Of a stretch of 64,000 bases of DNA, positions 29,923-47,765 are shown in pieces. The stretch is from Pectobacterium wasabiae CFBP 3304 (GTDB lineage: Bacteria; Pseudomonadota; Gammaproteobacteria; Enterobacterales; Enterobacteriaceae). Within the stretch, counting starts at the first letter, position 1; each line of letters opens with the position of its first letter. A program made the translations under genes and the position numbers. The stretch lies in contig NZ_CP015750.1 in NCBI RefSeq assembly GCF_001742185.1, positions 1,302,001 through 1,366,000 on the forward strand, given 5' to 3'. The notes beneath the pieces are model-generated. The model did not search any database. It was not told the origin of the DNA and worked only from the letters and a program-made list of their open reading frames with translations.

Positions 29923-30156
29923 AATCCCTTGATATCTGGTTGACGGTCAGTACGAGGCCATGCGCAGATGGATAAAACACCTCGCCTTTAGGCTGCTCAC
30001 ATGTGCACGCGGTGCCACGGATCGTCATGTATTGAGAAAAATTCAAGTTTGCCCGACGCCCTGCCTTTATCAAGCTGTCGTATCGCATATTTTGTGCTTA
30101 GCTTAGCGAAAAAGCGTCTTTGTCACCGAATGAGCGATTGAATATGCTTTCGTCAC

Positions 30157-30176
30157 ACACTGTATACAAATGCATT
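30157..30176. promoter_or_regulatory. Candidate operator of the GntR regulator before the MmgE/PrpD genes
   Basis: The palindrome TGTATACA at 30161-30168, extended on one side as TGTATACAAATGCATT, lies about 90 bases before the first MmgE/PrpD start in the 335-base divergent gap. The same core recurs before the ABC importer at 33999-34010. The rest of this gap shows no gene. Confidence 0.5.
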
Positions 30177-30257
30177 CAACAAGACAAAACGCGCATCCCA
30201 AGACCCGCTTGGCGGTACTGGCAATGTCATCGCGTTTTTGCCTAAGGAGTTCCTACG

Positions 30258-31610: not shown

Positions 31611-31674
31611 CGCGCCTCCGTTCGACATAACCCATTCGACATAAAAAATCTCACGATAATAACAGGACGCTTTC

Positions 31675-33000: not shown

Positions 33001-33097
33001 CAGCAGAAAGGATGCTTGATAGGCATTAATCGCATCGGGCATTATCATTTTTTGCATCGTCTGTTTAACCATCCGCGATACAGGGATAGCCTTCACC

Positions 33098-33859
33098 ATG
33101 TTGCATCTTGTTCCACCCGACATTTCGCCGATCTTTGCCGGTATCCTGATCTTTTGCAGCTTTTTGACGTCTGCGTTAACGGCAGCGCTGGGGCTGGGCG
33201 GCGGCGTCACGCTGCTTGCAATCATGGGATTGGGTATGCCAGTCAGCAGTCTGCTACCGGTTCACGGTATCGTCCAGCTCGGTTCCAACCTGAGCCGCAG
33301 CCTGATTCAACGTTTGTATATTGTCTGGCCGCTGGCGCTGTGGTTTTTTATCGGCAGCGTCATTGGCATCGCGCTGGGTGCGCCCGTCGCCGTCTGGCTC
33401 CCAGACAGTGTGGCAAAAATCGCGCTGGCCAGTTTCATTCTGTGGTCGGTTTTCCGTAAACGTACTACGCCAAAACCGGTTAACCGATTGTTCTTCATTC
33501 TGGGTGGTGCACTCACCAGCCTTGGCACCATGGTCGTCGGTGCAACAGGCCCAATGGTCGCTGGGTTGATCAGTTCGCAAGGGGTAACTAAAAAGCCGCT
33601 GATCGCCACGCATGCGCTCTGCATGGTGTTACAACACGGCCTAAAGATATTGGCATTCGGAATGATGGGATTTGCCTATCACGACTGGCTGCCGATGCTG
33701 GCTGCAATGATTGTCAGCGGTGTATTGGGCACCTGGTTAGGTACACGACTGCTGGATAATTTGCCCGAAAAACTCTTCCGCACCACCTTTCGCCTCACCA
33801 TGCTGCTCCTCAGCGCGCAGCTCATGTGGCAAGGCGTACAAGGACTGATCGCTCGTTAA
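33098..33859 (+). CDS. TauE/SafE-family membrane exporter
   Basis: Inner-membrane protein of 253 residues with about eight hydrophobic segments. ALGLGGGVTLLAIMGLGMPV near 29-48 and GTMVVGATGPMVAGL near 146-160 are the repeated glycine-rich signatures of the family, whose members export sulfite, sulfoacetate or related anions. It follows the two MmgE/PrpD genes after about 100 bases and is followed by a terminator-like hairpin, so it likely ends that operon. Export of a sulfur or organic anion product is possible but unproved. Confidence 0.85.
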   Translation: MLHLVPPDISPIFAGILIFCSFLTSALTAALGLGGGVTLLAIMGLGMPVSSLLPVHGIVQLGSNLSRSLIQRLYIVWPLALWFFIGSVIGIALGAPVAVWLPDSVAKIALASFILWSVFRKRTTPKPVNRLFFILGGALTSLGTMVVGATGPMVAGLISSQGVTKKPLIATHALCMVLQHGLKILAFGMMGFAYHDWLPMLAAMIVSGVLGTWLGTRLLDNLPEKLFRTTFRLTMLLLSAQLMWQGVQGLIAR

Positions 33860-33869
33860 CCTCCCCTCT

Positions 33870-33910
33870 GTGCCTTGCTTATCGCGCAAGGCACCGCTCT
33901 CTTTTCTCCT
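33870..33910 (+). terminator. Terminator after the TauE/SafE gene
   Basis: GTGCCTTGC and GCAAGGCAC pair around a seven-base loop, followed by CGCTCTCTTTTCTCC, a pyrimidine-rich but not uninterrupted T tract, 11 bases after the stop. Confidence 0.6.
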
Positions 33911-33998
33911 TCGCATCATCCCCAAAATAGCTATATCCATTATTCAGCTTTAGATAGAGAAATATGCTATTTGCCATTTGCAAGCAACATTGAGAACA

Positions 33999-34010
33999 TT
34001 TGTATACAAA
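33999..34010. promoter_or_regulatory. Second GntR operator candidate, before the ABC importer
   Basis: TTTGTATACAAA is a perfect 12-base palindrome about 120 bases upstream of the binding-protein gene. Its core equals the site at 30161-30168, suggesting that the regulator at 29272-29922 controls both units. Confidence 0.55.
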
Positions 34011-34049
34011 AGAACGCATCACAATAAAAACAATTAATTACAACAAATT

Positions 34050-34097
34050 AGCCCTTGGGTAATTCGAGTTGCAGGCAGCTTGAAATCTGACGGGCAC
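34050..34097. repeat. Internally deleted ERIC element
   Basis: TAATTCGAGTTGCAGG is joined almost directly to CAGCTTGAAATCTGACGGGC, i.e. the two ends of the ERIC consensus without the middle. It lies between the operator candidate and the binding-protein start, within the expected leader. Confidence 0.7.
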
Positions 34098-34127
34098 AAA
34101 ACAACACCGACCATTCTGAGGATACTT

Positions 34128-35180
34128 ATGCTGCGAAAACTACTCTCATTGACGACCGCCACTGCGCTAACTTTAGGGGGGCTTCTGCTGCCTGTTGCTC
34201 ACGCCAATGCCGCTGATGCAGGAAACGGCGAGACGCTCAAAAAGATCAAAGCACGCGGTGAGCTGGTTTGCGGCGTACACCCCGCGCGCCACGGTTTTTC
34301 CGCGATTGATAGCAAAGGACAGTGGACCGGACTGGACGTCGATTATTGCCGCGCGTTAGCCGCCGCTATTTTTGGCGATGCCAGCAAAGTACGTTTTGCC
34401 GCCCTTTCCACCGCGCAGCGTTTCCCGGCAATTCAGTCGGGTGAAGTGGACGTGCTATCACGCAATATCACCGCCGATTTATCTCGCGACACCTCGCTTG
34501 GGTTGAACTTCGCCCCGCCGACGTTCTATACCGGAACCGGCTTCATGGTGCGCACCAGTGCCAATGTGAAAAAGGTAGAAGATCTGGACGGCGCGACCGT
34601 CTGCATCACGCCGGGTAGCAGCACCGAACGCAACGTCGCGCAGATTTTTGCGTCACGCAACCTGCATTACACCCCGGTGGTTATTGAGAACAATAAAGAG
34701 TACGTCGCGGCCTATCTGTCTGGGCGTTGCGACGTCATCGCTCGCGATAAAGTCGCCCTGCCCGGCGTGCGTACCTTTGATGCGGAAAAACCGTCAGACC
34801 ACGTGATTCTACCGGGGATTTACTCAAAAGAGCCGCTGGCAATGGCGGTTCGTCAGGGCGATGACCAGTGGTACGACATCGTCAAATGGGTGGTTTACGC
34901 CACGTTCAACGCGGAAGAGATGGAAATCGGCCAACAGAACGTAGACAGCAAACTCAAATCGACAGACCCGGATGTACAGGCACTACTTGGGACCACCGGA
35001 GACTATGGACAAAAGCTGGGGCTGAATAACCAGTGGGCTTACAACCTGATTAAGCAGGTGGGAAATTACGGCGATATTTATAACCGTCATTTCGGGCCAG
35101 ACACCCCGGCACCGCTAGAGCGCGATCTGAATAACCTCTGGACGAAAGGCGGTCTGCTCTACGGCCTGCCCATTCGTTAA
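34128..35180 (+). CDS. Amino-acid ABC transporter, periplasmic binding protein (AapJ/YhdW type)
   Basis: A 350-residue solute-binding protein with a signal peptide ending near ANA-AD (about residue 29). The ligand-binding segments include KKIKARGELVCGVHPARHGF and the PGSSTERNVAQIF region near 174, and it ends with NNLWTKGGLLYGLPIR, typical of the AapJ general L-amino-acid class. GAGG precedes the ATG at 34128; the frame opens earlier inside an ERIC remnant, which is unlikely to be translated. It is first in a binding protein-permease-permease-ATPase operon. Confidence 0.9.
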   Translation: MLRKLLSLTTATALTLGGLLLPVAHANAADAGNGETLKKIKARGELVCGVHPARHGFSAIDSKGQWTGLDVDYCRALAAAIFGDASKVRFAALSTAQRFPAIQSGEVDVLSRNITADLSRDTSLGLNFAPPTFYTGTGFMVRTSANVKKVEDLDGATVCITPGSSTERNVAQIFASRNLHYTPVVIENNKEYVAAYLSGRCDVIARDKVALPGVRTFDAEKPSDHVILPGIYSKEPLAMAVRQGDDQWYDIVKWVVYATFNAEEMEIGQQNVDSKLKSTDPDVQALLGTTGDYGQKLGLNNQWAYNLIKQVGNYGDIYNRHFGPDTPAPLERDLNNLWTKGGLLYGLPIR

Positions 35181-35193
35181 TTCACCACACTGT

Positions 35194-35227
35194 TGGCATC
35201 AGCTCGGAAAGATTCGGGCTGATGCCA
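35194..35227 (+). other. Intra-operon hairpin after the binding-protein gene
   Basis: TGGCATCAGC and GCTGATGCCA form a perfect ten-base stem with a 14-base loop and no T run. Such hairpins commonly keep the binding-protein part of an ABC mRNA more abundant than the permease part. Confidence 0.6.
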
Positions 35228-35302
35228 TACCGCCATATTCAGACACTACCGTCATTGGGTGTGTTGAGAATCGGCAATGACCAGAAGAAAAGACCGCCGG
35301 TA

Positions 35303-36526
35303 ATGAAATCACCAGACAAGACGCTACTGCCAGCCTCAGCCACACCGTGGTCGGGAATGCCATCTCACTCGCGCCACCTGTTGAACGCTTTTGACAGTAA
35401 ATCCCTACGCGCCTGGATTTATCAGTGCCTGCTCGGCCTCCTGATTGTCGCTTTCAGCTACTGGCTGTACGCCAACGTAGTCGAAAATCTACGCTCACAA
35501 AATATCGCGACAGGATTTGGCTTCCTCGACCACATCGCACAGTTTGAAATTGGTGAAAAACTCATCGCGTTTACCCCACGCGATAGCTATCTGCGTGCGC
35601 TTGGCGTCGGTTTATTGAATACCCTGTACGTCACGCTATGCGGCATCGCGCTTGCGACACTGCTGGGTTTCTCCGTCGGCATCGCCCGCGTCTCCCGCAA
35701 CTGGTTGCTGGCGCGGCTCGCCGGGGGATACATCGAGATGATGCGCAATATTCCGGTGATCTTGCAGGTGATTTTCTGGTCGGTAGTTATCCGTAACCTT
35801 CCCTCACCACGCGATGCTATCGAGCTTGGCAGCCTGGGCTTTCTGACCAATCGCGGGCTGTCTTTTGCCGTCCCCGCCGCGCATCACGGCTGGCTGTTGG
35901 CCGGAACCGCCCTACTCGCCGCCGCCCTGATTAGCCTGATCCTGAAGCGCGTGGCACGCTACGTTCGGGAAAGCCGAGGACGCTCTCTGCCGACAGGCCG
36001 CCTGACACTCGTCGCGTTTATCGGGCTACCGCTACTGGTCTGGTGGCTTTCCGGCGCACCAGCAGAACTTGATCGTCCAATCCTGCGCAGTTTTAACTTC
36101 CGTGGCGGCTTTACCGTCAGCCCTGAATTCACTGCGCTGCTGCTCGGCATTGCGCTCTATTCCTCTGCGTTTATTGCGGAAATCGTGCGGGCGGGGATTC
36201 AGTCTATCCCCAAAGGGCAGTTGGAAGCGGCACGTGCGCTGTCCTTTTCCCCCTGGCACATGATGCGCCACATCATCATTCCACAGGCCATGCGCGTCAT
36301 CGTTCCACCGTTGACCAGCCAGTATGTCAGCCTGTCAAAAAACAGCTCGATCGCGGTCGTGGTCGGTTACCCAGAGCTGGCGAACATCAGTAACACGTTG
36401 ATGAACCAAACCGGTCAGGCGCTCGAAGTCATTGCCATCATGATGGTGGTTTACCTGACGGTCAGCATCGTGACATCGCTGCTGATGAACCTGTTTAACC
36501 GCGCCGTCGCCATCAAAGAACGCTGA
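35303..36526 (+). CDS. Amino-acid ABC transporter permease (AapQ/YhdX type)
   Basis: Inner-membrane permease of 407 residues with about eight hydrophobic segments. Near the C-terminus the ATPase-contact loop reads GQLEAARALSFSPWHMMRHI followed by IIPQAM, the EAA motif of the family. An N-terminal GLLNTLYVTLCGIALATLLG segment is the usual permease start of the domain. ATG 35303 (MKSPDKTLLP) is chosen, though its ribosome site is weak and an upstream start at 35222 is possible. The next gene begins ten bases after its stop. Confidence 0.87.
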   Translation: MKSPDKTLLPASATPWSGMPSHSRHLLNAFDSKSLRAWIYQCLLGLLIVAFSYWLYANVVENLRSQNIATGFGFLDHIAQFEIGEKLIAFTPRDSYLRALGVGLLNTLYVTLCGIALATLLGFSVGIARVSRNWLLARLAGGYIEMMRNIPVILQVIFWSVVIRNLPSPRDAIELGSLGFLTNRGLSFAVPAAHHGWLLAGTALLAAALISLILKRVARYVRESRGRSLPTGRLTLVAFIGLPLLVWWLSGAPAELDRPILRSFNFRGGFTVSPEFTALLLGIALYSSAFIAEIVRAGIQSIPKGQLEAARALSFSPWHMMRHIIIPQAMRVIVPPLTSQYVSLSKNSSIAVVVGYPELANISNTLMNQTGQALEVIAIMMVVYLTVSIVTSLLMNLFNRAVAIKER

Positions 36527-36536
36527 GGAACACTGA

Positions 36537-37646
36537 ATGTTATTTCCGGTACTGTCACTCTCCGCCGTTCCCAGCCGCCTACGCACGCCACTGCTGTGGC
36601 TGCGCCGCCACCTGTTCAGCAGCGGGCCGCAAACTGTACTCACGCTGCTACTGATGGTGCTGATGTGGAACATCGGTAATAAACTGCTGCACTGGGGCAT
36701 TCTCGATGCCGTGTGGTACACCACCGACCCAGACGTCTGCCGAGTAGCCGCCGGTGCCTGCTGGGCGGTAATCGTAGAAAAACATCGTCCCATCCTGTTT
36801 GGCCTTTATCCTTACGATGAACACTGGCGTCTGGTGCTGGCGATGGGGATCTGGTTTCTGGCTCTCGGTCTGTCGCTGATGCCCCGTTTCTGGTATTCGC
36901 GCATCCTCTTACCACTGTGGATTGCCGCGGTAATTGGCATCGCTATCCTGATGTTCGGCGGTTTATTTGGCTTATCTTACGTGCCTTCCAGCGAATGGGG
37001 CGGTCTACCGCTGACAATTCTGCTGTTTAGCGGCACCGTCGTCATCGGTATGCCCGTTTCGGTCTTGCTGGCGCTGGGGCGGCGATCGCCACTGCCTTTT
37101 CTACGCGGCCTGTCAGTTGTTTTTATCGAAGGCCTGCGCGGCGTGCCGCTCATCACGATCCTGTTCGTTGCCGTTAATGTCTTCCCGCTGTTCCTGCCCG
37201 CAGGCATGGAAATCAACAAGCTGCTGCGCATCATCATCGGTATCGCGCTGTTTTTCGCCTGCTATCAGGCTGAGGTGATTCGCGGTGGTTTACAGTCCGT
37301 TCCACGCGGGCAATACGAAGCGGCGATGGCGCTCAATCTCAACTATTGGCACACAACGACCAAAATTATCTTGCCGCAGGCGCTGCGCATCTGCCTACCC
37401 GCCATGACCAACCATATTATCGCCGCCATGAAGAACACCTCATTCGTCATCATTATCGGGCTGTTCGACATCCTCACTGCCACCAGTTCAGTAATGCAGG
37501 ACCCGCTATGGCGGCGCTATTACATTGAAACCTATATTTTTATCTCGGCTATCTATCTGCTGTTTGGCTTCCTGCTCTCACGCTACGCGCTGTGGGTGGA
37601 AAAACGCATCGATGCCAGCCGTAACCCAGAAACGTATCACGGTTAA
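36537..37646 (+). CDS. Amino-acid ABC transporter permease (AapM/YhdY type)
   Basis: Second inner-membrane permease, 369 residues. It has an N-terminal hydrophobic region and a C-terminal permease domain with IEGLRGVPLITILFVAVNVF and the EAA-like loop GQYEAAMALNLNYWHTTTKI. Length and layout fit the AapM class, which pairs with AapQ to form a heterodimeric channel. AGGAAC lies just before its ATG, and the ATPase gene follows after about 40 bases. Confidence 0.88.
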   Translation: MLFPVLSLSAVPSRLRTPLLWLRRHLFSSGPQTVLTLLLMVLMWNIGNKLLHWGILDAVWYTTDPDVCRVAAGACWAVIVEKHRPILFGLYPYDEHWRLVLAMGIWFLALGLSLMPRFWYSRILLPLWIAAVIGIAILMFGGLFGLSYVPSSEWGGLPLTILLFSGTVVIGMPVSVLLALGRRSPLPFLRGLSVVFIEGLRGVPLITILFVAVNVFPLFLPAGMEINKLLRIIIGIALFFACYQAEVIRGGLQSVPRGQYEAAMALNLNYWHTTTKIILPQALRICLPAMTNHIIAAMKNTSFVIIIGLFDILTATSSVMQDPLWRRYYIETYIFISAIYLLFGFLLSRYALWVEKRIDASRNPETYHG

Positions 37647-37688
37647 GCGATAGCCGTTGATGAAAACACCGACAGGAGCGTGGTTATC

Positions 37689-38489
37689 ATGAGCTTAGCC
37701 GCAGACACTTCATTTACAAATCATGTAGTTAAAGACAATATCATCACAGACAACAACGTCATCATTGAGATCGACGCTGTCAGCAAATGGTATGGCGCGT
37801 TTCAGGCGCTGAATAACGTGACGCTTAACGTGCAGAAAGGCGAGCGTGTGGTGATTTGCGGCCCTTCCGGCTCAGGTAAATCCACACTTATTCGCTGTAT
37901 TAACCGACTGGAAGAGCACCACGACGGCCATATCCGCGTGAATGGCATCGAAGTTAACGACAACATCAAGAACATCAACCGCGTGCGCTCCGGTATCGGT
38001 ATGCTGTTCCAGCAGTTCAACCTGTTTCCCCATCTGAGCGTGCTGGATAACCTGACGATTGGCCCGACGCTGGTCAAACAGCGTAAGAAGCAGGAAGCCA
38101 TCGATTTAGCGATGCACTATCTGGAGAAGGTGCATATCGCCAATCAGGCACATAAATTCCCGCTCCAGCTCTCTGGCGGCCAACAGCAGCGTGTGGCGAT
38201 TGCCCGGGCGCTGTGTATGCAGCCGGAAATCATGCTGTTTGACGAACCCACTTCAGCGCTGGATCCAGAGATGATTAAAGAAGTGTTGGATGTGATGCTG
38301 GATCTGGCGGAGTCGGGTATGACGATGATCGTCGTCACCCATGAGATGGGCTTTGCCAAGACGGTCGCTGACAAGGTGATTCTGATGGCCGACGGCAGCA
38401 TCGTTGAGTCCGCCCCGCCGCAGGACTTCTTCAACACGCCCTCACATCCGCGCACGCGCCAGTTCCTGGATCAGATTCTAAGCCATTAA
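37689..38489 (+). CDS. Amino-acid ABC transporter ATPase (AapP/YhdZ type)
   Basis: Cytoplasmic ATPase of about 266 residues. Walker [10 protein letters not shown] is near 58-66, the signature [15 protein letters not shown] near 157-171, Walker B ILFD-type [14 protein letters not shown] near 177-190, and the switch histidine in [11 protein letters not shown]. The ATG at 37689 has AGGAG ten bases upstream; an earlier GTG at 37680 is too close to it. It completes the AapJQMP-like importer and is convergent with the operon to its right. Confidence 0.92.
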
Positions 38490-38494
38490 TAGGC

Positions 38495-38527
38495 AAAAAT
38501 ATCCGCGCCGGAGAACCGGCGCGGATA
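38495..38527 (-). terminator. Terminator shared by convergent operons
   Basis: TATCCGCGCCGG and CCGGCGCGGATA form a perfect 12-base stem with an AGAA loop. On the minus strand five T residues follow, making it a strong intrinsic terminator for the lyase-to-deacylase operon; on the plus strand it may also stop the Aap-type operon. Confidence 0.85.
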
Positions 38528-38545
38528 GCATTGAGCAATCGGGAA

Positions 38546-39703
38546 TTAGCGGGAAGAGAGCTGTTCTAAGCTCTGTTTCGCGACCTGATATAAATAGTGC
38601 GCAGTTGGGAACAGTGCGCTGTCGTCAACGCGGAATTTCGGGTGGTGTAGTGCATAAGGTCCGCCGGAGCCAACCATCATGAACGTACCCGGCAGTTTCT
38701 GCTGATAGAACGCAAAATCTTCACCAATCGGGCTGGCTTCCACACGGCGCGCTTCAAAGCCTTCGTCACTTGCCACGTTCAGTGCAAACTCAACCCACTC
38801 TGGCGTATTGATCACCGATGGCGGCCCTGCGTGCCACAGGAACTCAATTTCCGCGCCAAAGGTGCTGGCGATACCCGAAACGATTTGGCGGAAACGCTGC
38901 TCAATCAAATCACGCGCGTCCTGATTAAACGTTCTGACCGTGCCTTCGACATAGGCCGTGTCGGGAATAACGTTCCAGGTGCTGCCGCTATGAACCTGAG
39001 TAATTGACACCACCGCGTTATTGTCGGACGACACCGTGCGGCTGATGATGGTTTGCACCGCAGAAATCAACTGACCCAGAATGATAATCGGATCGTTGCC
39101 TTCATGTGGCTTCGCAGCGTGGCAGCCTTTCGCCGCAATTTTGATCTCAAAACGGTCAACGCCCGCCGTCAATGCGCCGTCTTTCCCACCGATGACGCCA
39201 ACAGGCAACGTCGGATCGTTGTGAATACCGAAAATCGCTACCGCATTGTCCAACGCCCCGACAGCAATCACTTCCGGTGCGCCCAGGCCTGTCTCTTCAG
39301 CCGCCTGGAACAAAATCCGCACCGTGCCTTTCAGCTCCGGTTCGATTTTCTTCAGCAGGATCGCCGCACCCAACGCAGCGGAAGAGTGAAAGTCATGACC
39401 GCAGGCGTGCATCACCCCTTTGTTGAGTGATGTGAATTCTACGCCGGATTCTTCCTCAATCGGCAGGGCGTCGATGTCCGAACGCACCACGACCAGTGGA
39501 CCATCCTGTAGGCCACCGACTTCCGCGACCAGACCCGTTTTCAATGGCAGATCGAGAACGCGAATCCCTTCTTTTTCCAATACCGCACGAATCTTTTTCG
39601 TCGTTTCAAACTCCTGATTCGACAGTTCAGGATTGCGGTGTAAATCGTGGCGAAACGCCTGAATAAACTGAGCCAGAGGCTCGTGCTGAGGTGCGGTTTT
39701 CAT
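38546..39703 (-). CDS. M20-family N-acyl-amino-acid deacylase (amidohydrolase)
   Basis: Cytosolic metallopeptidase-like amidohydrolase of 385 residues. It shows FRHDLHRNPELSNQEFE near 15-31, the metal site MHACGHDFHSSAALG near 97-111, and EETGLGAPE near 136. Members remove acyl groups from amino acids and thioether conjugates, as YxeP and YtnL do in B. subtilis. The ATG at 39703 has GGAG nine bases upstream; a GTG five codons earlier is possible. It is the last gene of the six-gene operon, where it probably removes the acetyl group added by the GNAT enzyme. Confidence 0.87.
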   Translation of the reverse strand: MKTAPQHEPLAQFIQAFRHDLHRNPELSNQEFETTKKIRAVLEKEGIRVLDLPLKTGLVAEVGGLQDGPLVVVRSDIDALPIEEESGVEFTSLNKGVMHACGHDFHSSAALGAAILLKKIEPELKGTVRILFQAAEETGLGAPEVIAVGALDNAVAIFGIHNDPTLPVGVIGGKDGALTAGVDRFEIKIAAKGCHAAKPHEGNDPIIILGQLISAVQTIISRTVSSDNNAVVSITQVHSGSTWNVIPDTAYVEGTVRTFNQDARDLIEQRFRQIVSGIASTFGAEIEFLWHAGPPSVINTPEWVEFALNVASDEGFEARRVEASPIGEDFAFYQQKLPGTFMMVGSGGPYALHHPKFRVDDSALFPTAHYLYQVAKQSLEQLSSR

Positions 39704-39780
39704 CAATTCTTGCTCCACATTATCGTGCCCCGTCTGACGGGGCGGCCTTGTTCAGGCGTGCAGGTGTGTCTACGTATGCG

Positions 39781-40542
39781 TTAAATATCGTACTCAAGCG
39801 GCTCAGGCAGCTTGGTCAACTGACGCAGGAAACGCTGGGTTTGCGGGTTGTCCGAGAAGCTAATCACCTGCTCTGCCGGACCTTCCTCAACGATATGGCC
39901 GTCCGCCATGAAGATCACACGGTCGGCTACTTCTTTCGCAAACTGCATTTCATGGGTAACGATCACCATCGTGGTGTCGTTTTTCGCCAGCTTCTGAATC
40001 ACCTGAAGCACTTCGTGTACCCTTTCCGGGTCCAGCGCCGAGGTCGGTTCATCAAACAAAATGGCTTTCGGATCGACCGCCAGCGCACGTGCAATACTCA
40101 CACGCTGCTGCTGCCCGCCGGATAACGTCACCGGATACTGTGCCGCCTGCGGCAGCAGGCCAACCTGTTCCAGCAGCGCAAGACCGATTTCATCCGCCTG
40201 CTTCTTCGGCATTTTTTTCACGACAATCAGCGCTTCCGTTACATTCTCCAGCGCCGTCTTGTTCTTAAATAGGTTATAACTCTGAAACACCATCGCCGTC
40301 TGACGACGCAGCGCGTAGGCCTCTTTGGAGGAGTAACGATGCGTATCTAGCGTCTGTTCGCCAATTTTTATCGTACCTGACTCCGGCGTTTCCAGCAGAT
40401 TTAGGCAGCGCAGCAGCGTGGATTTACCTGAACCGGATGGGCCGATGATGGCAACAACTTCGCCTTTCGCGATATCCAGACTAATGTTGTTCAACACCAC
40501 CTGATCGCCAAAGCGTTTAGAAAGATTCTTTACACTGATCAT
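39781..40542 (-). CDS. Polar amino-acid ABC transporter ATPase
   Basis: A 253-residue ATPase with Walker [10 protein letters not shown] near 33-41, signature [15 protein letters not shown] near 139-153, Walker [14 protein letters not shown] near 161-173, and the VTHEMQFAKEVADR switch region. It belongs to the cystine/glutamine-type importer class (TcyC/TcyN, GlnQ). It follows its permease after nine bases and precedes the deacylase gene after about 60. Confidence 0.92.
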   Translation of the reverse strand: MISVKNLSKRFGDQVVLNNISLDIAKGEVVAIIGPSGSGKSTLLRCLNLLETPESGTIKIGEQTLDTHRYSSKEAYALRRQTAMVFQSYNLFKNKTALENVTEALIVVKKMPKKQADEIGLALLEQVGLLPQAAQYPVTLSGGQQQRVSIARALAVDPKAILFDEPTSALDPERVHEVLQVIQKLAKNDTTMVIVTHEMQFAKEVADRVIFMADGHIVEEGPAEQVISFSDNPQTQRFLRQLTKLPEPLEYDI

Positions 40543-40551
40543 GTCAGCCCC

Positions 40552-41223
40552 TTATCGCTGTAGCGAGTGATTCAGTTTCTTCTCCAACTGCTTTTGCAGC
40601 CAGGCGTAAACCACAATCACCATCCAGTAAATCAGACCCACGACCAGGAAGGTCTCAAAGAAACGCAGAGATTCAGCGGCAATCATCTTGCCTTCCGCGA
40701 ACAGTTCGGAGACGCCCAGCGCGAAGGCCACCGAGGTATCTTTAATCAGGGAAATAAAGGTGTTCCCCGTCGCTGGCAACGCATTCAACATCGCCTGAGG
40801 CAATACGATGCGGCGATAGACCTGCGCTTTACTCATGCCAATGGACAGGCCCGCTTCCGTCTGGCCGAAATCCACCGAGGCCAGGCCCGCACGGAAAATC
40901 TCAGCCATATAGGCGGAGGTTTTCAGGCTAAAGCCGATAATCGCGGCCGTCATCGCATCCAGATTGGATAAGCTTGGAAATAGCTGCGGTAGGCCGAAAT
41001 AGATAATAAATAACTGAACCAGCGACGGAATGCCGCGAAACAACGAAATATACAGTTCGACAATTTTTACTACCGCGACGATCTTGCTTTCACGGACTAA
41101 CGCCAGGATAAGGCCGAGAACCATAGCAAAAAACATCGACACCACGGCAAGGAACAGCGTGGTCGGCAAATACATTAATACCTGGGGAAAGACCTTCAGC
41201 AGGTAGGCAAGATCGACATTCAT
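40552..41223 (-). CDS. Polar amino-acid ABC transporter permease
   Basis: Inner-membrane permease of 223 residues with about five membrane segments. ELYISLFRGIPSLVQLFIIY near 52-71 and the EAA-like loop GQTEAGLSIGMSKAQVYRRI followed by VLPQAM are diagnostic. One permease gene suggests a homodimeric channel, as in cystine importers. A hairpin lies in the 85-base gap between it and the binding-protein gene. Confidence 0.92.
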   Translation of the reverse strand: MNVDLAYLLKVFPQVLMYLPTTLFLAVVSMFFAMVLGLILALVRESKIVAVVKIVELYISLFRGIPSLVQLFIIYFGLPQLFPSLSNLDAMTAAIIGFSLKTSAYMAEIFRAGLASVDFGQTEAGLSIGMSKAQVYRRIVLPQAMLNALPATGNTFISLIKDTSVAFALGVSELFAEGKMIAAESLRFFETFLVVGLIYWMVIVVYAWLQKQLEKKLNHSLQR

Positions 41224-41242
41224 GAGTTATACCATTAATGCT

Positions 41243-41268
41243 TCCACCGGCCATACTGCACCGGTGGA
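41243..41268 (-). other. Intra-operon hairpin between binding-protein and permease genes
   Basis: TCCACCGG and CCGGTGGA make an eight-base stem with a ten-base loop; no T run follows. It resembles hairpins that limit permease relative to binding-protein expression. Confidence 0.5.
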
Positions 41269-41308
41269 GGAGGCGATAAGTCAACCGACAAGCGGCAATG
41301 CAATAACG

Positions 41309-42100
41309 TTACTTTTTCGGTGAAACAGAAATATCCTCACCAAAGTATTTTTCGGCGAGGGCTTTCAGGCGTCCATCTTCACGCATTTTCGTCAATTCAG
41401 CATCGAATTGTTTACGTAACGCATCACCATTTTCGTCTTTGTGGAACGGGAAGCTGACTTCTTCAATCACCAGCGGTTCGCCAACCAGTTTGAACGGCAG
41501 ATTACGCTTATTGATTTCAGCCAACAGGATCGGACGTGAATTCACGTAGCCTTCAACACGTTTAGACAGCGCATCGTTCATTGCGCCATCGCGTGTTTCG
41601 TAGGTGCGAATAGTGACGCTGCCGTCGGCAAACGCTTTTTTCAGGTTGTTGACGTGGTTAGAACCCAGAACCCCGGCAACCGTCTTCCCTTTCAGGTCAG
41701 CCAATGTATTAATGTCCGCGTTGTCTTTGTGCGTGACAATCTGGCTGCCATAATAACTGTACGGTTGGGCGAAGTTATACTTTTCCTGACGCGCAGGGGT
41801 AATTGCCACCACGTTCGCCACGGTATCCAGCTTTTTCGCTTCCAATTGCCCCATCAGGCCACTGAAATCAGCGGTAACCCACTCAACTTTGTAGTTCAAA
41901 TCCTTCGCGATGGTTTCCGTGACTTCAACGTCAAACCCGACCAGCTTGTTATCCTGCTTAAAACCACTTGGATAACTCTGGCCTGTTGAACCCACTTTCA
42001 GTACTTTTTCCTGTTCGGTGCCGCTTTTCCCAGAATCACAGCCGGCAACAAGAAAGGCGGTCGTCAGCGCCAGAACAGACAACGTTACTTTTTTCATCAT
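41309..42100 (-). CDS. Amino-acid ABC transporter binding lipoprotein (TcyA/cystine-like)
   Basis: A 263-residue solute-binding protein anchored as a lipoprotein: the signal ends in LVAGC (Cys20). GQSYPSGFKQDNKLVGFDVE and FSGLMGQLEAKKLD fit the polar amino-acid family, closest in style to cystine and S-substituted cysteine binders. The unusual stretch TYETRDGAMNDALSKRVEGY is shared almost unchanged with the orphan paralogue at 46956-47765. Its ATG overlaps the GNAT stop codon, so the two are translationally coupled. Confidence 0.9.
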   Translation of the reverse strand: MMKKVTLSVLALTTAFLVAGCDSGKSGTEQEKVLKVGSTGQSYPSGFKQDNKLVGFDVEVTETIAKDLNYKVEWVTADFSGLMGQLEAKKLDTVANVVAITPARQEKYNFAQPYSYYGSQIVTHKDNADINTLADLKGKTVAGVLGSNHVNNLKKAFADGSVTIRTYETRDGAMNDALSKRVEGYVNSRPILLAEINKRNLPFKLVGEPLVIEEVSFPFHKDENGDALRKQFDAELTKMREDGRLKALAEKYFGEDISVSPKK

Positions 42101-42639
42101 TTTACTGCCTCTCTTTTTGAATTTTTATCTTTCCACTGGTCATACAATTGGTTATCAAGGATTTTTTCCATCCAAATTGTCAGGTGTCCTTTTCCCAGAT
42201 TCGTCTGCCCGACTTCCTTGAAACCATAATTTCTGTACATCTCAATCAGCCACGGGTGGTTTTGCGCGGTGCCGAGCGACACGGCAGGCGCTTTGAGCTG
42301 GTTAATCAGAATTTCTTCTTCCAACCAGCTCATCATTTGCTTACCCAATCCCTGCTTTTTATAGCCAGGGTGCGTCGCAAACCAGCCCAGATGCGGTAGA
42401 CCGAACGGGCCCGGCTCAGGCCCCCACGGATAGCGGATGGTAAATGACGACACCATCTCCCCACCTTTTTCCATCACATAAACGCCGTGTGAGGCGATGT
42501 GCGTGCGCACCATGTCGATATCCGCATGGGCAGCAGAAAAATTGATACCTAACTGACGAATCGGCTCAAACGCCGCCAGCGCCAGCGCCAAAAAAGTTTC
42601 ATCATCCGCAAGCGTAGCCTGACGAAATACGATACTCAT
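42097..42639 (-). CDS. GNAT-family N-acetyltransferase
   Basis: A 180-residue GNAT enzyme. The acetyl-CoA loop is HPGYKKQGLGKQMMSWLEEE near 91-110, preceded by the beta-4 strand PHLGWFATHPG. The later PWLIEMYRNYGFKEVGQTN carries the usual C-terminal helix. Between a PurB-like lyase and an amino-acid importer, and with a deacylase in the same operon, it probably acetylates the amino group of the imported amino acid before cleavage, like SnaA/YxeL-type enzymes. Substrate not established. Confidence 0.87.
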   Translation of the reverse strand: MSIVFRQATLADDETFLALALAAFEPIRQLGINFSAAHADIDMVRTHIASHGVYVMEKGGEMVSSFTIRYPWGPEPGPFGLPHLGWFATHPGYKKQGLGKQMMSWLEEEILINQLKAPAVSLGTAQNHPWLIEMYRNYGFKEVGQTNLGKGHLTIWMEKILDNQLYDQWKDKNSKREAVK

Positions 42640-42648
42640 GGTTTCACC

Positions 42649-44013
42649 TTATGCTGGCAACAGGCCGGAGTTATCCGCATAGCGAATCACATCATCGACC
42701 TTCTGCGGCGCGCTGCCGACGTAGTTAGCCGGATTCAGCCAGTCGTCCAGATCGGCGGCCGTCACCTGTTCGGAAAGTACCGGGTGTGCCAGCAGTACCG
42801 ATTTAAAGGACTGATTCTGCTCGAATGCCTGCATAGAGCATTCGTAAACCAAATGGTGAGCAGTCTGCTTACCGAGACGTTTGCCAATCTCGAACATCAC
42901 TTTCTCGGACAGCAGCAGGCCATTTTGCAGATCGAGATTCGCCAGCATCTGCTTCTCGTTGACGGACATGCCACGCAGGATGCCAAGCGCATTCTGAAGC
43001 TGAGCAGACAGATAGATATTGATTTCCGGCAGCGCGATCCACTCCGCACGCCAGCTCATCGCATCACGCTCATGTTCAACTTTCATGGATTCGTGGATCA
43101 GCGCGGCGCTCTTAAACAGCGGTGCCGTCAGGCTAGCCAGCCCTTCCAGCGCGGCAGGGTTACGTTTATGCGGCATCGTGGTAGAACCGATTTTCCCTTC
43201 GGAGAACGGCTCTTCGATTTCATTAATCTCGGTGCGCATCAGGTTGTACAGCTCGTTGCCGATTTTGCCCAGCGTACCGCTGATCAGAACCGTCACGGAG
43301 GCATATTCGGAGAAGCGATCGCGGGCAGACTGCCAGCCGATATTCGGCGTATTCAGCCCCAGTTTATCCAGCGTCAGACGCTCGATTTCCGGCCCTTGTT
43401 CGCCAAAAGAAGCATAAGTGCAAATAGCACCGTTGATGTTGCCGACCAAAACACGCTCTCTAATTTCACCCAGACGTTCAAGGTGACGAATAAATTCATC
43501 CAGCCAGACAGCCAGTTTGAAGCCAAACGTGGTAGGCAGCGCCTGCATGCCGTGGGTACGGCCAGCCATCAGCGTGTGTTGATATTTCTTCGCCAAGCGT
43601 TTCAGTTCAACGGCCAGCAATTGTGTATCTCTGACGACAATATCGAAAGATTGTTTCAGTTGTAACACTGTCGCGGTATCAACGATGTCCTGCGTGGTTA
43701 CGCCGTAGTGAATAAATTCACCCGCAGCACCACACTGTCTCTGAATCGCGGCAATCGTCGGCATCAGAGAATGCTTCATGCGTGCCGCATCTTTTGCAAT
43801 CTCTTCAACGTTAAGCGCGCTTGCGTCAGCGTTTTCTGCAATGGTTTTTGCCGCATCCAGCGGAATGACACCGAGTTCGCCCTCGGCAAGCGCCAGAGCA
43901 ACTTCTACCTCGACCTGTTTAGTCAGGCGGTTATGCTCGGACCAGACGCCGCGCATTTCAGGCGTGCCAAAATTATTCCCTATAAGAAGAAAATCAATAA
44001 GATGTGATGCCAT
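42649..44013 (-). CDS. PurB-like lyase, candidate S-(2-succino) lyase
   Basis: A 454-residue member of the aspartase/fumarase (adenylosuccinate lyase) superfamily, which releases fumarate by beta-elimination. The superfamily signature GSTTMPHKRNPAALEG lies at 277-292, the catalytic-histidine motif GRTHGMQALPTTFG at 151-164, and HYGVTTQDIVDT at 102-113. It is shorter in role terms than a housekeeping PurB, which in enterobacteria sits elsewhere beside hflD/phoP. Operon partners (acetyltransferase, amino-acid importer, deacylase) point to a succinated amino acid such as S-(2-succino)cysteine. It is first in the operon. Confidence 0.85.
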   Translation of the reverse strand: MASHLIDFLLIGNNFGTPEMRGVWSEHNRLTKQVEVEVALALAEGELGVIPLDAAKTIAENADASALNVEEIAKDAARMKHSLMPTIAAIQRQCGAAGEFIHYGVTTQDIVDTATVLQLKQSFDIVVRDTQLLAVELKRLAKKYQHTLMAGRTHGMQALPTTFGFKLAVWLDEFIRHLERLGEIRERVLVGNINGAICTYASFGEQGPEIERLTLDKLGLNTPNIGWQSARDRFSEYASVTVLISGTLGKIGNELYNLMRTEINEIEEPFSEGKIGSTTMPHKRNPAALEGLASLTAPLFKSAALIHESMKVEHERDAMSWRAEWIALPEINIYLSAQLQNALGILRGMSVNEKQMLANLDLQNGLLLSEKVMFEIGKRLGKQTAHHLVYECSMQAFEQNQSFKSVLLAHPVLSEQVTAADLDDWLNPANYVGSAPQKVDDVIRYADNSGLLPA

Positions 44014-44261
44014 AATTAACTCGTTAGTGTTGGATTTATCAGGCGGGGTTTTATGTCGTCTTTTTAATTTTTAAAAATATAACATGCGGAAATTATGCGC
44101 TTTATATCTTTCGGATCTATCTTAGATCTAAAAGTTTGATTGCAAAGTATGCATCTAGACATGTTCGCTAACACTCTCTCTTGGGCTGAGAAACCCGCTT
44201 GTCACTTTCCCCTCTCTACAATGAAATTCCTTGCCCGTATCACTGCTGACGAAGGATTATC

Positions 44262-45563
44262 ATGCTTTCCCAAAACACATCGCGAACAATCCGTATTTTA
44301 TTGATTATAATACCTATTATTTCAACGTTCTCTGCTCAAGCTCAGGATCGCTATCTGCTGGAAAAAGTGGTTGAAGTCAGCCGCCATGGCGTTCGCCCCC
44401 CGACCGAATCCAATACAACCGCGTTAGAATCCGGCACGGCGCGACAATGGCCGCAGTGGGTCACGCGGGAAGGCGAATTAACCGGACATGGCTATGCCGC
44501 CACGGTGCTAAAAGGCCGCTATGAGGGCGAATATTATCGACAACAGCATCTGTTCGCTTCGGGTTGCCCAACAGAACAGCAGATTTATGTACTTGCCAGC
44601 CCATTGCAACGCACTCGCGCAACCGCACAGGCTTATATGGATGGCATGTTTCCCGGTTGCGGTGTTGCCACACACGCCGTTGAGGATGAAAAGCACGATC
44701 CGTTGTTCCACGGGGATAAAATGGGGATTGGCACGCTTGACCCTGAACGGGCAAAGGCCGAGGTGTTGAAAGCGATGGGTGGCGATCTAGATACCGCCTA
44801 TCAGCGTCTTAAGCCCAGTATCACGTTGTTGAAGCAGGTCGTATGCACAGCAGACCAGCCCTGTCCGGTGTTTGATAAACCGTGGGCGCTCAAACAGGAT
44901 AAGGACGGTTCGACTTCTATCAGTGGCCTGAATACGCTGGCGAATATGAGCGAGGTTTTCCTGCTGGAATATAGCGAAAACCTGCCGCTAGCACAGGTTG
45001 CCTTCGGTCATGTCCGCAGCGCGCAGGATCTCACCCCATTGATGGCACCAATGACGGCTAAATACGATTTCACCAATGATGTTCCCTATATCGCACAGCG
45101 CGGTGGTTCGCTATTGATGCAGCAAATCACACAGGCACTGGCGCAAGGGACATCAGCAGAACAGGACACCGCACTAGGCGAGCCGCCGACAGCCCCTTAC
45201 TTGCTGTATGTCGCCCACGACACCAACATCGCCTATCTACGCACGCTGTTGCAGTTTCATTGGCAGCTCCCCAGCGATACCGCCGATAACATCCCGCCCG
45301 CAGGCAGTCTGGTCTTTGAACGCTGGCGTGATACCACTACTCAGCAGCGTTTTTTACGCGTCTACTTCCAGACACAATCGCTGGATCAGATCCGTTCGCT
45401 GACACAGTTGGGTAAGCAGCAGCCGTTATTGAAAGAAGAGTTGGCGTTGCAGGGTTGCCAGCAGACAGAGCAAGGCACGCTGTGTCCTTTTGCTACCACG
45501 CTGGAATCAATGCGAAAAAGCATCGATAGCAGTGCGTTAGCAACGGTGCATTACGCGCCATAA
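44262..45563 (+). CDS. appA: Periplasmic histidine acid phosphatase/phytase (AppA type)
   Basis: A 433-residue acid phosphatase with a signal peptide ending near AQAQ (residues 1-28). The catalytic RHGVRPPT is at about 40-47 and the proton-donor HD motif in YVAHDTNIAYL near 318. Cysteine pairs are spread as in E. coli AppA. It would release phosphate from phytate or other phosphomonoesters in the periplasm, plausible for a plant-associated bacterium. It stands alone and convergent with the dehydrogenase gene, separated by a hairpin. The 248 bases upstream are shared with the divergent lyase operon. Confidence 0.88.
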   Translation: MLSQNTSRTIRILLIIIPIISTFSAQAQDRYLLEKVVEVSRHGVRPPTESNTTALESGTARQWPQWVTREGELTGHGYAATVLKGRYEGEYYRQQHLFASGCPTEQQIYVLASPLQRTRATAQAYMDGMFPGCGVATHAVEDEKHDPLFHGDKMGIGTLDPERAKAEVLKAMGGDLDTAYQRLKPSITLLKQVVCTADQPCPVFDKPWALKQDKDGSTSISGLNTLANMSEVFLLEYSENLPLAQVAFGHVRSAQDLTPLMAPMTAKYDFTNDVPYIAQRGGSLLMQQITQALAQGTSAEQDTALGEPPTAPYLLYVAHDTNIAYLRTLLQFHWQLPSDTADNIPPAGSLVFERWRDTTTQQRFLRVYFQTQSLDQIRSLTQLGKQQPLLKEELALQGCQQTEQGTLCPFATTLESMRKSIDSSALATVHYAP

Positions 45564-45624: not shown

Positions 45625-46701
45625 CTATCTGCGCACATTTTCCACCGCCAGAATAGCGCGGTTCAGTGCGTCAGGAGAGAGAGAGAACGGCAATAACGCC
45701 GCGCTATCAGTTGGGAATTTAAAGTGTGTCACGATATGCTTCACCGCTTCCTCATATTGTTCTCCTGCTATCGGAAGCGATAAGGGCATATCATAGCGAT
45801 ATAACTGCTCCAATAAACCCTCATCAACACACTCGCTGTCATGTGCCAGAAGAGATTGTACTAGCAATCCGAATCCGACTTTTTCACCATGTAGCCAATC
45901 GTGCAATTCAGGGATATAGGTCAAACGGTTATGAATAGCATGAGCAACACCCGGAGCAGGGTTTTCATCCCTCATACTATTAGCCAGTCCCGCGCCAGCA
46001 ATCGCCGCATCAATAACCTTCTGCAACGCAGGCGTCACCTGCTGATTTTCATTATCGCGTATCGCCTGTTCCCCCCATTGTTCAAAGATATCACGGGCAA
46101 AAGTGGCGGCCTGTATCTTGAGACTCAATGCCAGGCTGTCGCTACACGAGCTCAAGTACGGCTGAAATTCATACCATTTCGCCAACGCGTCAACGATCCC
46201 GGCTTTCAAGTAACGCGCGTCGCTACGTGCAATGACGGAACTATCAACCATGACAAGGACAGGCATCCGTTTGAGCACAACAGTCCCCTGATGCCCGCCT
46301 TGATCATTATAAAGAATGCTAATTGGCGACCAGGCCGCACAGGTAGCCGCTATCGTTGGTAGTGTGGCAACCTGCCCATTTTCCAGTCCATCCGCGATGG
46401 CCTTAGCACAATCCAGCACACGCCCGCCGCCAATCCCTACGACAAACTGAATGTTATTCCGTGCAATTTTTTCACGGTGGTATTCCACACTTTCACGCGT
46501 ACATTCTCCGGTTAAGAAATGCACATCAAAAGCAATTCCGTTGCTCTTAAGGCTGCCAGTCACTTCATTCTCAACCGCTTGCCAGGCACTTGGGCTGGTT
46601 AAAATCGCAATGTTCTGACTAAACGAGTGAATCAGTCCACCGATATGACGGCACAAATCAGCCTGATGATGATAAGCAAGGGGAGATTTTATAGATAACA
46701 C
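45625..46701 (-). CDS. Iron-containing alcohol dehydrogenase family protein (HcxA/YbdH-like)
   Basis: A 358-residue NAD(P)-dependent oxidoreductase of the glycerol-dehydrogenase-like group. The nucleotide loop is VVGIGGGRVLDCAKAIADG near 87-105, then PTIAATCAAWSPISILYND as in E. coli HcxA (hydroxycarboxylate dehydrogenase). Likely metal ligands are the aspartate in AGIVDALAKWYE and histidines in VAHAIHNRLT and HDWLHGEKVGFG. Reduction of 2-oxo acids is the known HcxA activity; the substrate here is not proved. Confidence 0.82.
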   Translation of the reverse strand: MLSIKSPLAYHHQADLCRHIGGLIHSFSQNIAILTSPSAWQAVENEVTGSLKSNGIAFDVHFLTGECTRESVEYHREKIARNNIQFVVGIGGGRVLDCAKAIADGLENGQVATLPTIAATCAAWSPISILYNDQGGHQGTVVLKRMPVLVMVDSSVIARSDARYLKAGIVDALAKWYEFQPYLSSCSDSLALSLKIQAATFARDIFEQWGEQAIRDNENQQVTPALQKVIDAAIAGAGLANSMRDENPAPGVAHAIHNRLTYIPELHDWLHGEKVGFGLLVQSLLAHDSECVDEGLLEQLYRYDMPLSLPIAGEQYEEAVKHIVTHFKFPTDSAALLPFSLSPDALNRAILAVENVRR

Positions 46702-46955: not shown

Positions 46956-47765
46956 ATGCAAACACGCTTCTTTATTAAACCTAAAACACTCTTGCTCGCA
47001 GCAGGGATCGCCGTCGCCGTAGTTGGGTGTGATAACACGACCACTACGGACCAGCCACAGGTTTTACGCATTGGTACTACCGGACAGAGTTTTCCTGGTT
47101 CTTATAAAGAAAACGGTAAACTCGTTGGCTATGATGTAGAAGTCGCTGAAAAAATAGCGCATGAACTGGGATATAAGGTCGAGTGGACAACATCAGACTT
47201 TAGCGGCTTACTGGGGCAGTTAGAGGCAGGAAAACTTGATACTATCGCGAATAATTTCGTCCAAACCGAGGCTCGTCAGAAAAAATATAATTTTTCTAAA
47301 GACTACCTCACTTATGCTTCACAGATCGTCACAAGTATAAAAAATGACGATATCCAGTCTTTATCCGACCTGGACGGAAAAACGGTTGCAGGGGTTCTAG
47401 GCTCTACACACGTCACGAACCTGCGTAACGCTTTTCCCAAAAACAATATTACCATTAGAACCTACGAGACCCGAGACGGCGCAGTCAATGATGTCATCAG
47501 CAACCGCGTACAGGGCTATGTCAATTCACGCCCGATTCTGCTAGCCGAAATCAACAAACATAAACTGCCACTCAAGTTGGTTGGGGAACCGTTATCCCAT
47601 GAGATCGTTAGTTTTCCGTTTGCGAAAAATCCAAAAGGCGACACCCTACTCGCCGCTTTTAACGAAAAGCTCGACACATTAAGAAGCAACCGTCAGTTGA
47701 ATGAGCTAGCCGAAAAGTATTTTGGTAACGATGATGTGCTGGGGCATGGATCCAAAGCTCAATAA
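46956..47765 (+). CDS. Orphan amino-acid-binding lipoprotein, paralogue of the operon binding protein
   Basis: A 269-residue solute-binding lipoprotein with lipobox VVGC (about Cys25). It is clearly paralogous to the protein at 41309-42100: both have LRIGTTGQSFP-like starts, FSGLLGQLEAGKLDT, VAGVLGSTHV and TYETRDGAVND followed by GYVNSRPILLAEIN. No permease or ATPase gene accompanies it, so it may feed the nearby importer with a related ligand. The 254 bases upstream are AT-rich; it ends before the tRNA cluster. Confidence 0.88.
   Translation: MQTRFFIKPKTLLLAAGIAVAVVGCDNTTTTDQPQVLRIGTTGQSFPGSYKENGKLVGYDVEVAEKIAHELGYKVEWTTSDFSGLLGQLEAGKLDTIANNFVQTEARQKKYNFSKDYLTYASQIVTSIKNDDIQSLSDLDGKTVAGVLGSTHVTNLRNAFPKNNITIRTYETRDGAVNDVISNRVQGYVNSRPILLAEINKHKLPLKLVGEPLSHEIVSFPFAKNPKGDTLLAAFNEKLDTLRSNRQLNELAEKYFGNDDVLGHGSKAQ

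Follow-up and report, generated by a model that had tools for sequence, protein, structure and literature searches.

A predicted lyase-type S-(2-succino)cysteine salvage operon in Pectobacterium wasabiae

Salvage of S-(2-succino)cysteine (2SC) through the yxe (scm) pathway was published in 2022 (Hillmann et al. 2022, PMC9706529). In Bacillus subtilis, YxeL acetylates the amino group of 2SC (PMC9706529), and passages of PMC12757645 describe B. subtilis ScmP as a deacetylase specific for N-acetylcysteine. In another variant of the route the cleaving enzyme is an S-(2-succino) lyase (2SL). Conversion of N-acetyl-2SC to fumarate and N-acetylcysteine has been shown for two lyases, one from Enterococcus italicus DSM 15952 and one from Dickeya dadantii (UniProt E0SKP1), and both tested enzymes acted best on N-acetyl-2SC; the E. 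italicus enzyme was purified, assayed and shown to complement a B. subtilis yxeK mutant (PMC9706529). The authors of that study argued that acetylation allows the reversible lyase to work without drawing down cysteine and fumarate.

The window analyzed here (64,000 nucleotides of P. wasabiae CFBP 3304, contig NZ_CP015750.1, positions 1,302,001 to 1,366,000) carries six genes on its minus strand at 38546–44013, with spacings, from lyase to deacetylase, of 9, –4, 85, 9 and 62 nt (from gene coordinates). The leading gene encodes a 454-aa lyase (42649..44013; Pfam Lyase_1 and ADSL_C), assigned as a putative 2SL from its Pfam domains, its place in a lyase tree and its identity to the lyase encoded in the E. 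italicus locus. It is followed by a YxeL/ScmL-like GNAT acetyltransferase of 180 aa (42097..42639; Pfam GNAT), the predicted 2SC N-acetyltransferase, which is the least conserved part of the operon (38% identical over 156 aa to its counterpart in the E. italicus locus) and had no match at E 0.001 in NCBIfam or the PDB. The importer consists of a YxeM-like solute-binding protein (41309..42100; SBP_bac_3; 62% identical to the corresponding E. italicus protein), a YxeN-like permease (40552..41223; BPD_transp_1; 62%) and a YxeO-like ATPase (39781..40542; ABC_tran; 66%). The last gene encodes a YxeP/ScmP-like M20 deacetylase of 390 aa (38546..39718; Peptidase_M20 and M20_dimer), a predicted N-acetylcysteine deacetylase, whose top-scoring solved structure is that of B. 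subtilis YxeP (1ysj, 395 bits; next 204) and which is 55% identical over 372 aa to its E. italicus match. Taking a class I lyase with at least three yxe components as the mark of such a locus, we found counterparts of YxeL, YxeM, YxeN, YxeO and YxeP beside the lyase. Gene coordinates and Pfam assignments bear out the first-pass annotation, which had described six genes of these families on one strand.

Judged by sequence comparison, this operon is very probably the Pectobacterium copy of the known lyase-form 2SC salvage operon; since the pathway has already been published (PMC9706529), the finding holds but is not new. The ABC importer would take up 2SC, the GNAT enzyme would acetylate its amino group as B. 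subtilis YxeL does, the lyase would remove fumarate from N-acetyl-2SC by beta-elimination to yield N-acetylcysteine, and the M20 enzyme, by analogy with B. subtilis ScmP, would free cysteine. The same order of import, N-acetylation, fumarate-releasing cleavage and deacetylation to cysteine had been proposed from the DNA alone, and it agrees with the 2SL variant of the yxe/scm pathway as published; fumarate-releasing S-(2-succino) lyases of other bacteria, to which that proposal referred, are known from E. italicus and D. dadantii (PMC9706529). The role of the operon is likely the use of 2SC as a sulfur source. The 2SC may derive from succinated proteins of the cell itself or from plant tissue, of which decaying tissue was the source first suggested.

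The lyase carries intact GRTHG and GSTTMPHKRNP motifs, as first reported; His154 and Ser277, respectively, would be the catalytic His and the loop Ser, as in PurB, FumC and ArgH. Over 452 aa, the window lyase shares 62% identity with its counterpart in the yxe locus of E. italicus DSM 15952, and it is 88% identical to the lyases of Dickeya oryzae and D. undicola, and its predicted activity is drawn from these identities to E. italicus and to two Dickeya species other than D. dadantii. Of three Lyase_1 matches in the E. italicus genome, the matching one lies in the yxe locus; from strain and locus, we infer that it is the tested enzyme, UniProt E6LDH5. The first-pass annotation had named grouping with true PurB or ArgH as the result that would speak against its reading. 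In the lyase tree (36 rows), the window lyase joined the E. italicus lyase, apart from the PurB, ArgH and PcaB-type rows, which include the PurB, ArgH and PcaB-like protein of the host genome itself, and the reading was not refuted. By sequence it groups with a biochemically proven 2SL, in a 2SL set of 27 rows with moderate support (83/87); one candidate from Clostridiaceae (L055) took no settled place in the tree. A second 2SL in the host genome was also considered, but the candidate (L006, 41% identical to the window lyase) was read as PcaB-like: its best model is PcaB NF006554 (485.6, below the cut-off of 595), and its TIGR02426 pcaB score of 355.7 falls just below the cut-off of 355.75.

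Among the 59 loci fetched with a lyase, lyase and GNAT genes were adjacent on one strand in 57, and all six genes stood in the window order in 34, as judged by gene starts with intervening genes allowed (e.g. a YxeQ-like gene in a few loci). The six-gene order was kept from Enterococcus to Pectobacterium. On these two counts, the arrangement is more than chance. Lyase loci were found in 11 Pectobacterium, several Brenneria, two Dickeya and one Samsonia. Against the 2SC reading, a 43% identical lyase in one genome (G006) adjoins an MmgE/PrpD gene, which shows that nearer relatives of the lyase can occur in other settings.

Relatives of the window lyase, where named, mostly carry the name 'adenylosuccinate lyase', and the window lyase itself scores above the NCBIfam TIGR00928 purB cut-off (370.6 vs 326.2), as would be expected of a second adenylosuccinate lyase for purine synthesis in an operon assembled by chance. 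However, the host genome has its own full PurB (L005; 802 bits, cut-off 446) and its own ArgH (L004; 862 bits, cut-off 657). With L005 separate and the tree dividing the two, the window lyase is neither the sole or main PurB of the genome nor a member of the PurB group; these copies, the PcaB-like L006 and the tree together rule out a PurB, ArgH or PcaB identity. Considering also the near-constant lyase–GNAT adjacency, we regard a second PurB in a chance assembly as extremely improbable. The same very low probability attaches to an ordinary cystine or amino-acid importer lying beside unrelated enzymes of general amino-acid catabolism: for each of the three transporter parts the top NCBIfam model is that of a cystine transporter (a cystine permease for the permease, TcyN for the ATPase), yet none of these models reaches its cut-off, and the six-gene order is conserved in 34 of the 59 loci across the distance from Enterococcus to Pectobacterium.

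The same chemistry on a different main substrate, such as another S-succino thiol, an N-succino amino acid or a carboxyalkyl thiol, is improbable, with arguments on both sides. The 2SL enzymes are also active on dithiothreitol, mercaptoethanol and coenzyme M (PMC9706529); 3-sulfopropionylcysteine synthase XcbD and nitrosuccinate lyase are among the NCBIfam neighbours of the window lyase, with both scoring below cut-off; and another solute-binding protein, which shares 61% identity with that of the operon, is encoded nearby on the plus strand (46956..47765), with a counterpart in the fetched flank of 9 of the 59 lyase loci. Against these stand the gene order and the YxeP-type deacetylase, which fit the characterized 2SC loci, and the preference of both tested 2SLs for N-acetyl-2SC.

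An intrinsic terminator at 38500–38527 (minus strand; 12-pair stem plus U run) closes the operon, as had been claimed; a 61-nt piece containing it folds at –26 kcal/mol (z –4.7), and none of 200 shuffles was equally stable. Upstream of the lyase, an inverted repeat on the minus strand (GATCT-AAGAT-AGATC, 44114..44128) is a candidate regulator site, suggested by its conservation: across the 19 of 59 loci that were aligned, 10 of 11 Pectobacterium loci, the Samsonia locus and all four Brenneria loci retain both arms, and L020, L021 and L022 do not. A candidate extended –10 element, TGTTATATT (44076..44084, minus strand), proposed from its sequence and conservation, is shared by the rows for Pectobacterium, Samsonia and Brenneria in the upstream alignment. 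A consensus scan of 38400–44300 found no sigma-70 promoter pair, against 5.0 expected in shuffles.

YxeQ is the only yxe component listed with unknown function in PMC9706529. A YxeQ-like MmgE/PrpD gene was linked to the lyase in 30 of the 59 loci, 12 of them from Gilliamella, and also to the YxeK-like form without a lyase (L098). The window operon contains no MmgE/PrpD gene and is thus not a yxe locus with YxeQ; the nearest relative in the host genome (G000, 844237–845562) lies beside AraC and TonB-receptor genes. The best solved relatives of YxeQ are 'B. subtilis IRG1' (7bra), which, judged by its length and accession only, may be the YxeQ protein, and then iminodisuccinate epimerase. The His/Tyr pair proposed for the latter is kept in all 36 YxeQ rows; in three other MmgE/PrpD controls the His is present in all three and the Tyr too in one, so that the pair alone is no proof of an epimerase. 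2SC carries a stereocentre at its succino carbon, and both forms should arise when succination is spontaneous. Given the linkage of YxeQ-like genes to the lyase and to the YxeK-like form, the relationship to iminodisuccinate epimerase, whose substrate carbon is of this type, and the conserved His/Tyr pair, whose Tyr is reported missing in mammalian IRG1 (PMC7347537), we tentatively raise the possibility, in itself rather doubtful, that YxeQ may be a missing S-(2-succino) epimerase, converting a form unusable by the lyase or monooxygenase to the usable one. We know of no earlier version of this proposal. If it held, an unlinked copy would have to serve in Pectobacterium and Dickeya, or only one form would be used there. 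In the searched passages of PMC7347537, 'B. subtilis IRG1' is treated as a cis-aconitate decarboxylase, which counts against our reading of that protein; those passages give neither a gene name or accession for the 7bra protein nor an activity measurement of it.

Among 99 genomes sampled from the family at one per genus, a lyase match at E 1e-120 was present in seven (G006 at 43% only) and a match to the host YxeQ copy at E 1e-90 in six, four genomes holding both. The probability of this co-occurrence by chance is 5.8e-5 with six lyase genomes and 1.3e-4 with seven, but the genomes are related and it is not independent evidence. The unlinked YxeQ copy lies beside AraC and TonB-receptor genes in four genomes (G000, G017, G025 and G100), these neighbours being Pfam-confirmed in L082, L099 and L097 and identified by gene layout only in L100. 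The unlinked copies branch within the enterobacterial yxe-linked set, and G025 has such a copy and no lyase match. As proof of a split pathway, the host copy is weakened by the kinship of the genomes, the AraC/TonB setting and the lyase-less G025.

Other genes accompany the lyase in some relatives. A monooxygenase family (F23) occurs in 9 of the 59 lyase loci; its best solved relatives are MoxC/YtnJ, with no chain named YxeK among them, and it is called YxeK-like on account of its position in the locus and of L098, a locus that contains it without the lyase. An aspartate aminotransferase (F26) was found in eight loci, all with F23. One F23 locus (L059) lacks F26 in the fetched flank, and in 12 Gilliamella loci a different class I/II aminotransferase (F15) precedes the lyase and F23 is absent, so the link between F26 and F23 through oxaloacetate is only a suggestion. 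In the window, an Fe-type, GldA-like alcohol dehydrogenase (45625..46701, minus strand; Pfam) represents an accessory neighbour present in the fetched flank of 16 of the 59 lyase loci; among the 11 fetched Pectobacterium loci it was in the flank of L015 only. It occurs with the lyase only, the monooxygenase only, or both (L101, L098 and L027, respectively).

These comparisons correct the misleading public name 'adenylosuccinate lyase' for this lyase group and, from the loci in Pectobacterium, Brenneria, Dickeya and Samsonia, indicate that soft-rot bacteria commonly have the 2SC route. They also highlight partners left unexplained in the 2022 paper (PMC9706529), above all YxeQ.

The closest described system is the 2SL-type yxe/scm locus of E. 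italicus DSM 15952 (PMC9706529), which matches the window operon in its six genes and their order, each gene being homologous to its window counterpart at 38–66% identity. In E. italicus a YxeQ-like MmgE/PrpD gene immediately precedes the lyase, whereas the window operon is without one. For Dickeya, the comparison covers D. oryzae and D. undicola (L021 and L022); both loci have the window order with no difference seen in the six genes, although the upstream inverted repeat of the window is not kept. The window lyase has the signature motifs of PurB, ArgH and PcaB and stands on a separate tree branch; we take it to share the fold and beta-elimination chemistry of their fumarase/aspartase superfamily (cf. 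PMC9706529). The B. subtilis yxe (scm) operon and the 2SL route both proceed by acetylation, cleavage and deacetylation, but in B. subtilis the FMN monooxygenase YxeK carries out the cleavage and oxaloacetate is formed (PMC9706529), whereas the window operon has a predicted fumarate-releasing lyase.

Six co-directional genes occupy the minus strand of the window at 38546–44013. Gene calls and family matches identified them as a lyase (42649–44013), a GNAT acetyltransferase (42097–42639), the solute-binding protein (41309–42100), permease (40552–41223) and ATPase (39781–40542) of an ABC importer, and an M20 deacetylase (38546–39718), with spacings of 9, –4, 85, 9 and 62 nt calculated from the gene coordinates. 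A 12-pair hairpin followed by a U run closes the operon at 38500–38527 (z = –4.7; none of 200 shuffles equally stable). Both the one-strand, six-gene operon with its named families and the strong terminator of the first-pass annotation were borne out.

The lyase retains both catalytic motifs, GRTHG and GSTTMPHKRNP, as had been claimed. Its score exceeded the cut-off of the purB model TIGR00928 (370.6 vs 326.2 bits, NCBIfam) and fell under that of each of the other 17 NCBIfam models listed. The genome (5.04 Mb, one contig) yielded seven Lyase_1 matches, which include a full PurB (L005, 802 bits), ArgH (L004, 862 bits) and, at 41% identity to the window lyase, the PcaB-like L006. Whether the lyase groups with true PurB or ArgH was examined in a maximum-likelihood tree of 36 rows (the window lyase, 28 of the 59 locus lyases and seven other superfamily members). 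The window lyase fell with those of Pectobacterium, Brenneria, Samsonia, Symbiopectobacterium and Dickeya (8 rows, support 98/93), and these joined 19 more rows, including the Enterococcus italicus DSM 15952 lyase; support for the resulting group of 27 was moderate (83/87). All rows of PurB, ArgH or PcaB type lay outside this group, as did a 43% identical lyase from another genome (G006), several outside rows being on very long branches that the tree tool flagged as unsure. A Clostridiaceae row (L055) was unresolved at the base, and an Omnitrophota row (L065) paired with the E. italicus PurB.

The lyase of Pectobacterium peruviense matches the window lyase at 100% identity and those of the other ten Pectobacterium loci at 98–99%, which places the genome in Pectobacterium; the lyases of two Dickeya loci match at 88%. 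Among the 59 loci, all fetched via the lyase, the lyase (≥45% identity required) and GNAT were each present in 58, the binding protein and permease in 50, the ATPase in 49 and the deacetylase in 41. The single locus in which neither of these two passed the threshold is L065, its distant lyase being 34% identical. Lyase adjoined GNAT in 57 loci, and all six genes followed the window order in 34, as judged by order of starts, which allows intervening genes. The lyase gene is in pieces in Gilliamella sp. Lep-s35 (L064) and cut short, with neighbours retained, in Serratia rubidaea NCTC12971 (L066).

Upstream of the lyase, an alignment of 20 regions (the window and 19 of the 59 loci) revealed a candidate site, the inverted repeat GATCT-AAGAT-AGATC at 44114–44128. 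Both arms were retained by 10 of 11 Pectobacterium loci, Samsonia and all four Brenneria loci, but by neither Dickeya locus nor Symbiopectobacterium (L020). TGTTATATT (44076–44084) was conserved across the Pectobacterium, Samsonia and Brenneria sequences. Our guess is that the promoter is weak and that a site for an activator lies upstream of it.

Several other genes recur around the lyase, whose own presence beside each partner is by construction; since fetched flanks were ≤7 kb, partner counts are lower bounds. A YxeK-like FMN monooxygenase (F23) accompanied the lyase in 9/59 loci (L027, L029, L030, L032, L034, L048, L051, L059 and, with the lyase cut short, L066); lyase and YxeK occurred together in three of 102 yxe loci in PMC9706529. 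An aspartate-aminotransferase-like family (F26) was found in eight of these nine and in none of the remaining fetched loci. Because YxeK yields oxaloacetate, an F26-type enzyme could turn this product into aspartate. However, 12 Gilliamella loci that lack F23 have another aminotransferase (F15) before the lyase, and this makes the connection less secure. A YxeK-like form of the locus (L098, genome G089) carries F23, F26, GldA-like, GNAT, M20 and YxeQ genes and a different importer; no lyase was found in it, nor genome-wide at E 1e-120. The GldA-like dehydrogenase, present in 16/59 loci and the window, occurs with only the lyase, with only the monooxygenase, or with the two together. A second binding protein was present in 9/59 loci; the window copy shares 61% identity with the operon's own, and in L027 a further copy scored nearer to the latter. 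The operon and the GldA-like gene are separated by an AppA-like histidine acid phosphatase (44262–45563, under the NCBIfam cut-off), seen in 10/59 loci.

One testable question concerns YxeQ, an MmgE/PrpD protein listed as of unknown function in PMC9706529. YxeQ-like proteins were present in 30/59 loci, 12 of them from Gilliamella. The best solved relatives of two were 7bra ('B. subtilis IRG1') and then iminodisuccinate epimerase (2hp0/2hp3). According to PMC7347537, active-site residues are completely conserved between these enzymes; His99 and Tyr145 are the proposed bases, and mammalian IRG1 is without the Tyr. The His, Tyr and a second His were kept in 36/36 aligned YxeQ rows (30 from loci, four unlinked copies, L098 and L101); three control MmgE/PrpD proteins had both His, and one (window 31675–33000) also the Tyr. 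YxeQ could be an epimerase acting on the succino carbon of S-(2-succino)cysteine (2SC), though this is less likely than not; accessible portions of the literature searched on YxeQ held no such proposal. Its relevance to the window operon is doubtful, because the operon has no linked YxeQ gene and the genome's nearest copy (844237–845562) lies beside AraC and TonB-receptor genes. G017 and G025 share this arrangement of a YxeQ-like gene, AraC regulator and TonB-dependent receptor (L082 4624–9566, ~840.6–845.6 kb of the window's genome), as does G100 judging from gene layout; no lyase match at E 1e-120 was obtained in G025. In G006, the 43% identical lyase is followed by an MmgE/PrpD protein (L103, 8040–10977), with no GNAT or deacetylase match within the 18 kb stretch; the pair possibly serves as lyase and epimerase for another succino compound.

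Convergent with the operon is a second cluster (29272–38489, plus strand except the regulator) of a GntR/FCD regulator, two MmgE/PrpD proteins, a TauE/SafE permease and an aap-type polar amino-acid importer. It looks like a system that imports and degrades a carboxylate-bearing compound. Genes of the aap type also stood beside the lyase locus in 8/59 fetched loci.

The operon type is already known. Hillmann et al. (2022, PMC9706529) found an S-(2-succino) lyase (2SL) gene in 27/102 yxe loci, mostly those without the monooxygenase gene yxeK. With 2SC supplied, the 2SL of E. italicus DSM 15952 or Dickeya dadantii DSM 18020 rescued B. subtilis lacking yxeK, and both purified enzymes reversibly converted N-acetyl-2SC to fumarate and N-acetylcysteine, with ~320-fold (E. 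italicus) or ~60-fold (D. dadantii) higher efficiency than for 2SC. The authors left undecided whether own or external 2SC is the substrate source. Decaying plant tissue, the source suggested in the first-pass annotation, is possible but speculative. Zmuda et al. (2025, PMC12757645) describe B. subtilis ScmP (YxeP) as a specific N-acetylcysteine deacetylase. A search of the open literature on Pectobacterium and 2SC gave no paper, so the Pectobacterium member seems undescribed there.

In the window, the operon's importer would take up 2SC, which would then be N-acetylated, cleaved by the lyase with elimination of fumarate and deacetylated to cysteine, the last three steps having been shown in other species. 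We judge this proposal of the first-pass annotation to be very probably the correct reading, the set and order of genes being those of the E. italicus 2SL locus. That locus (L056) has the same six genes in identical order, with identities of 62% (lyase), 38% (GNAT), 62% (binding protein), 62% (permease), 66% (ATPase) and 55% (deacetylase). The E. italicus genome has three Lyase_1 matches, the other two being ~34% and ~28% identical to the window lyase; the locus copy should be the 2SL assayed in PMC9706529, because it is the sole E. italicus Lyase_1 protein near the window lyase.
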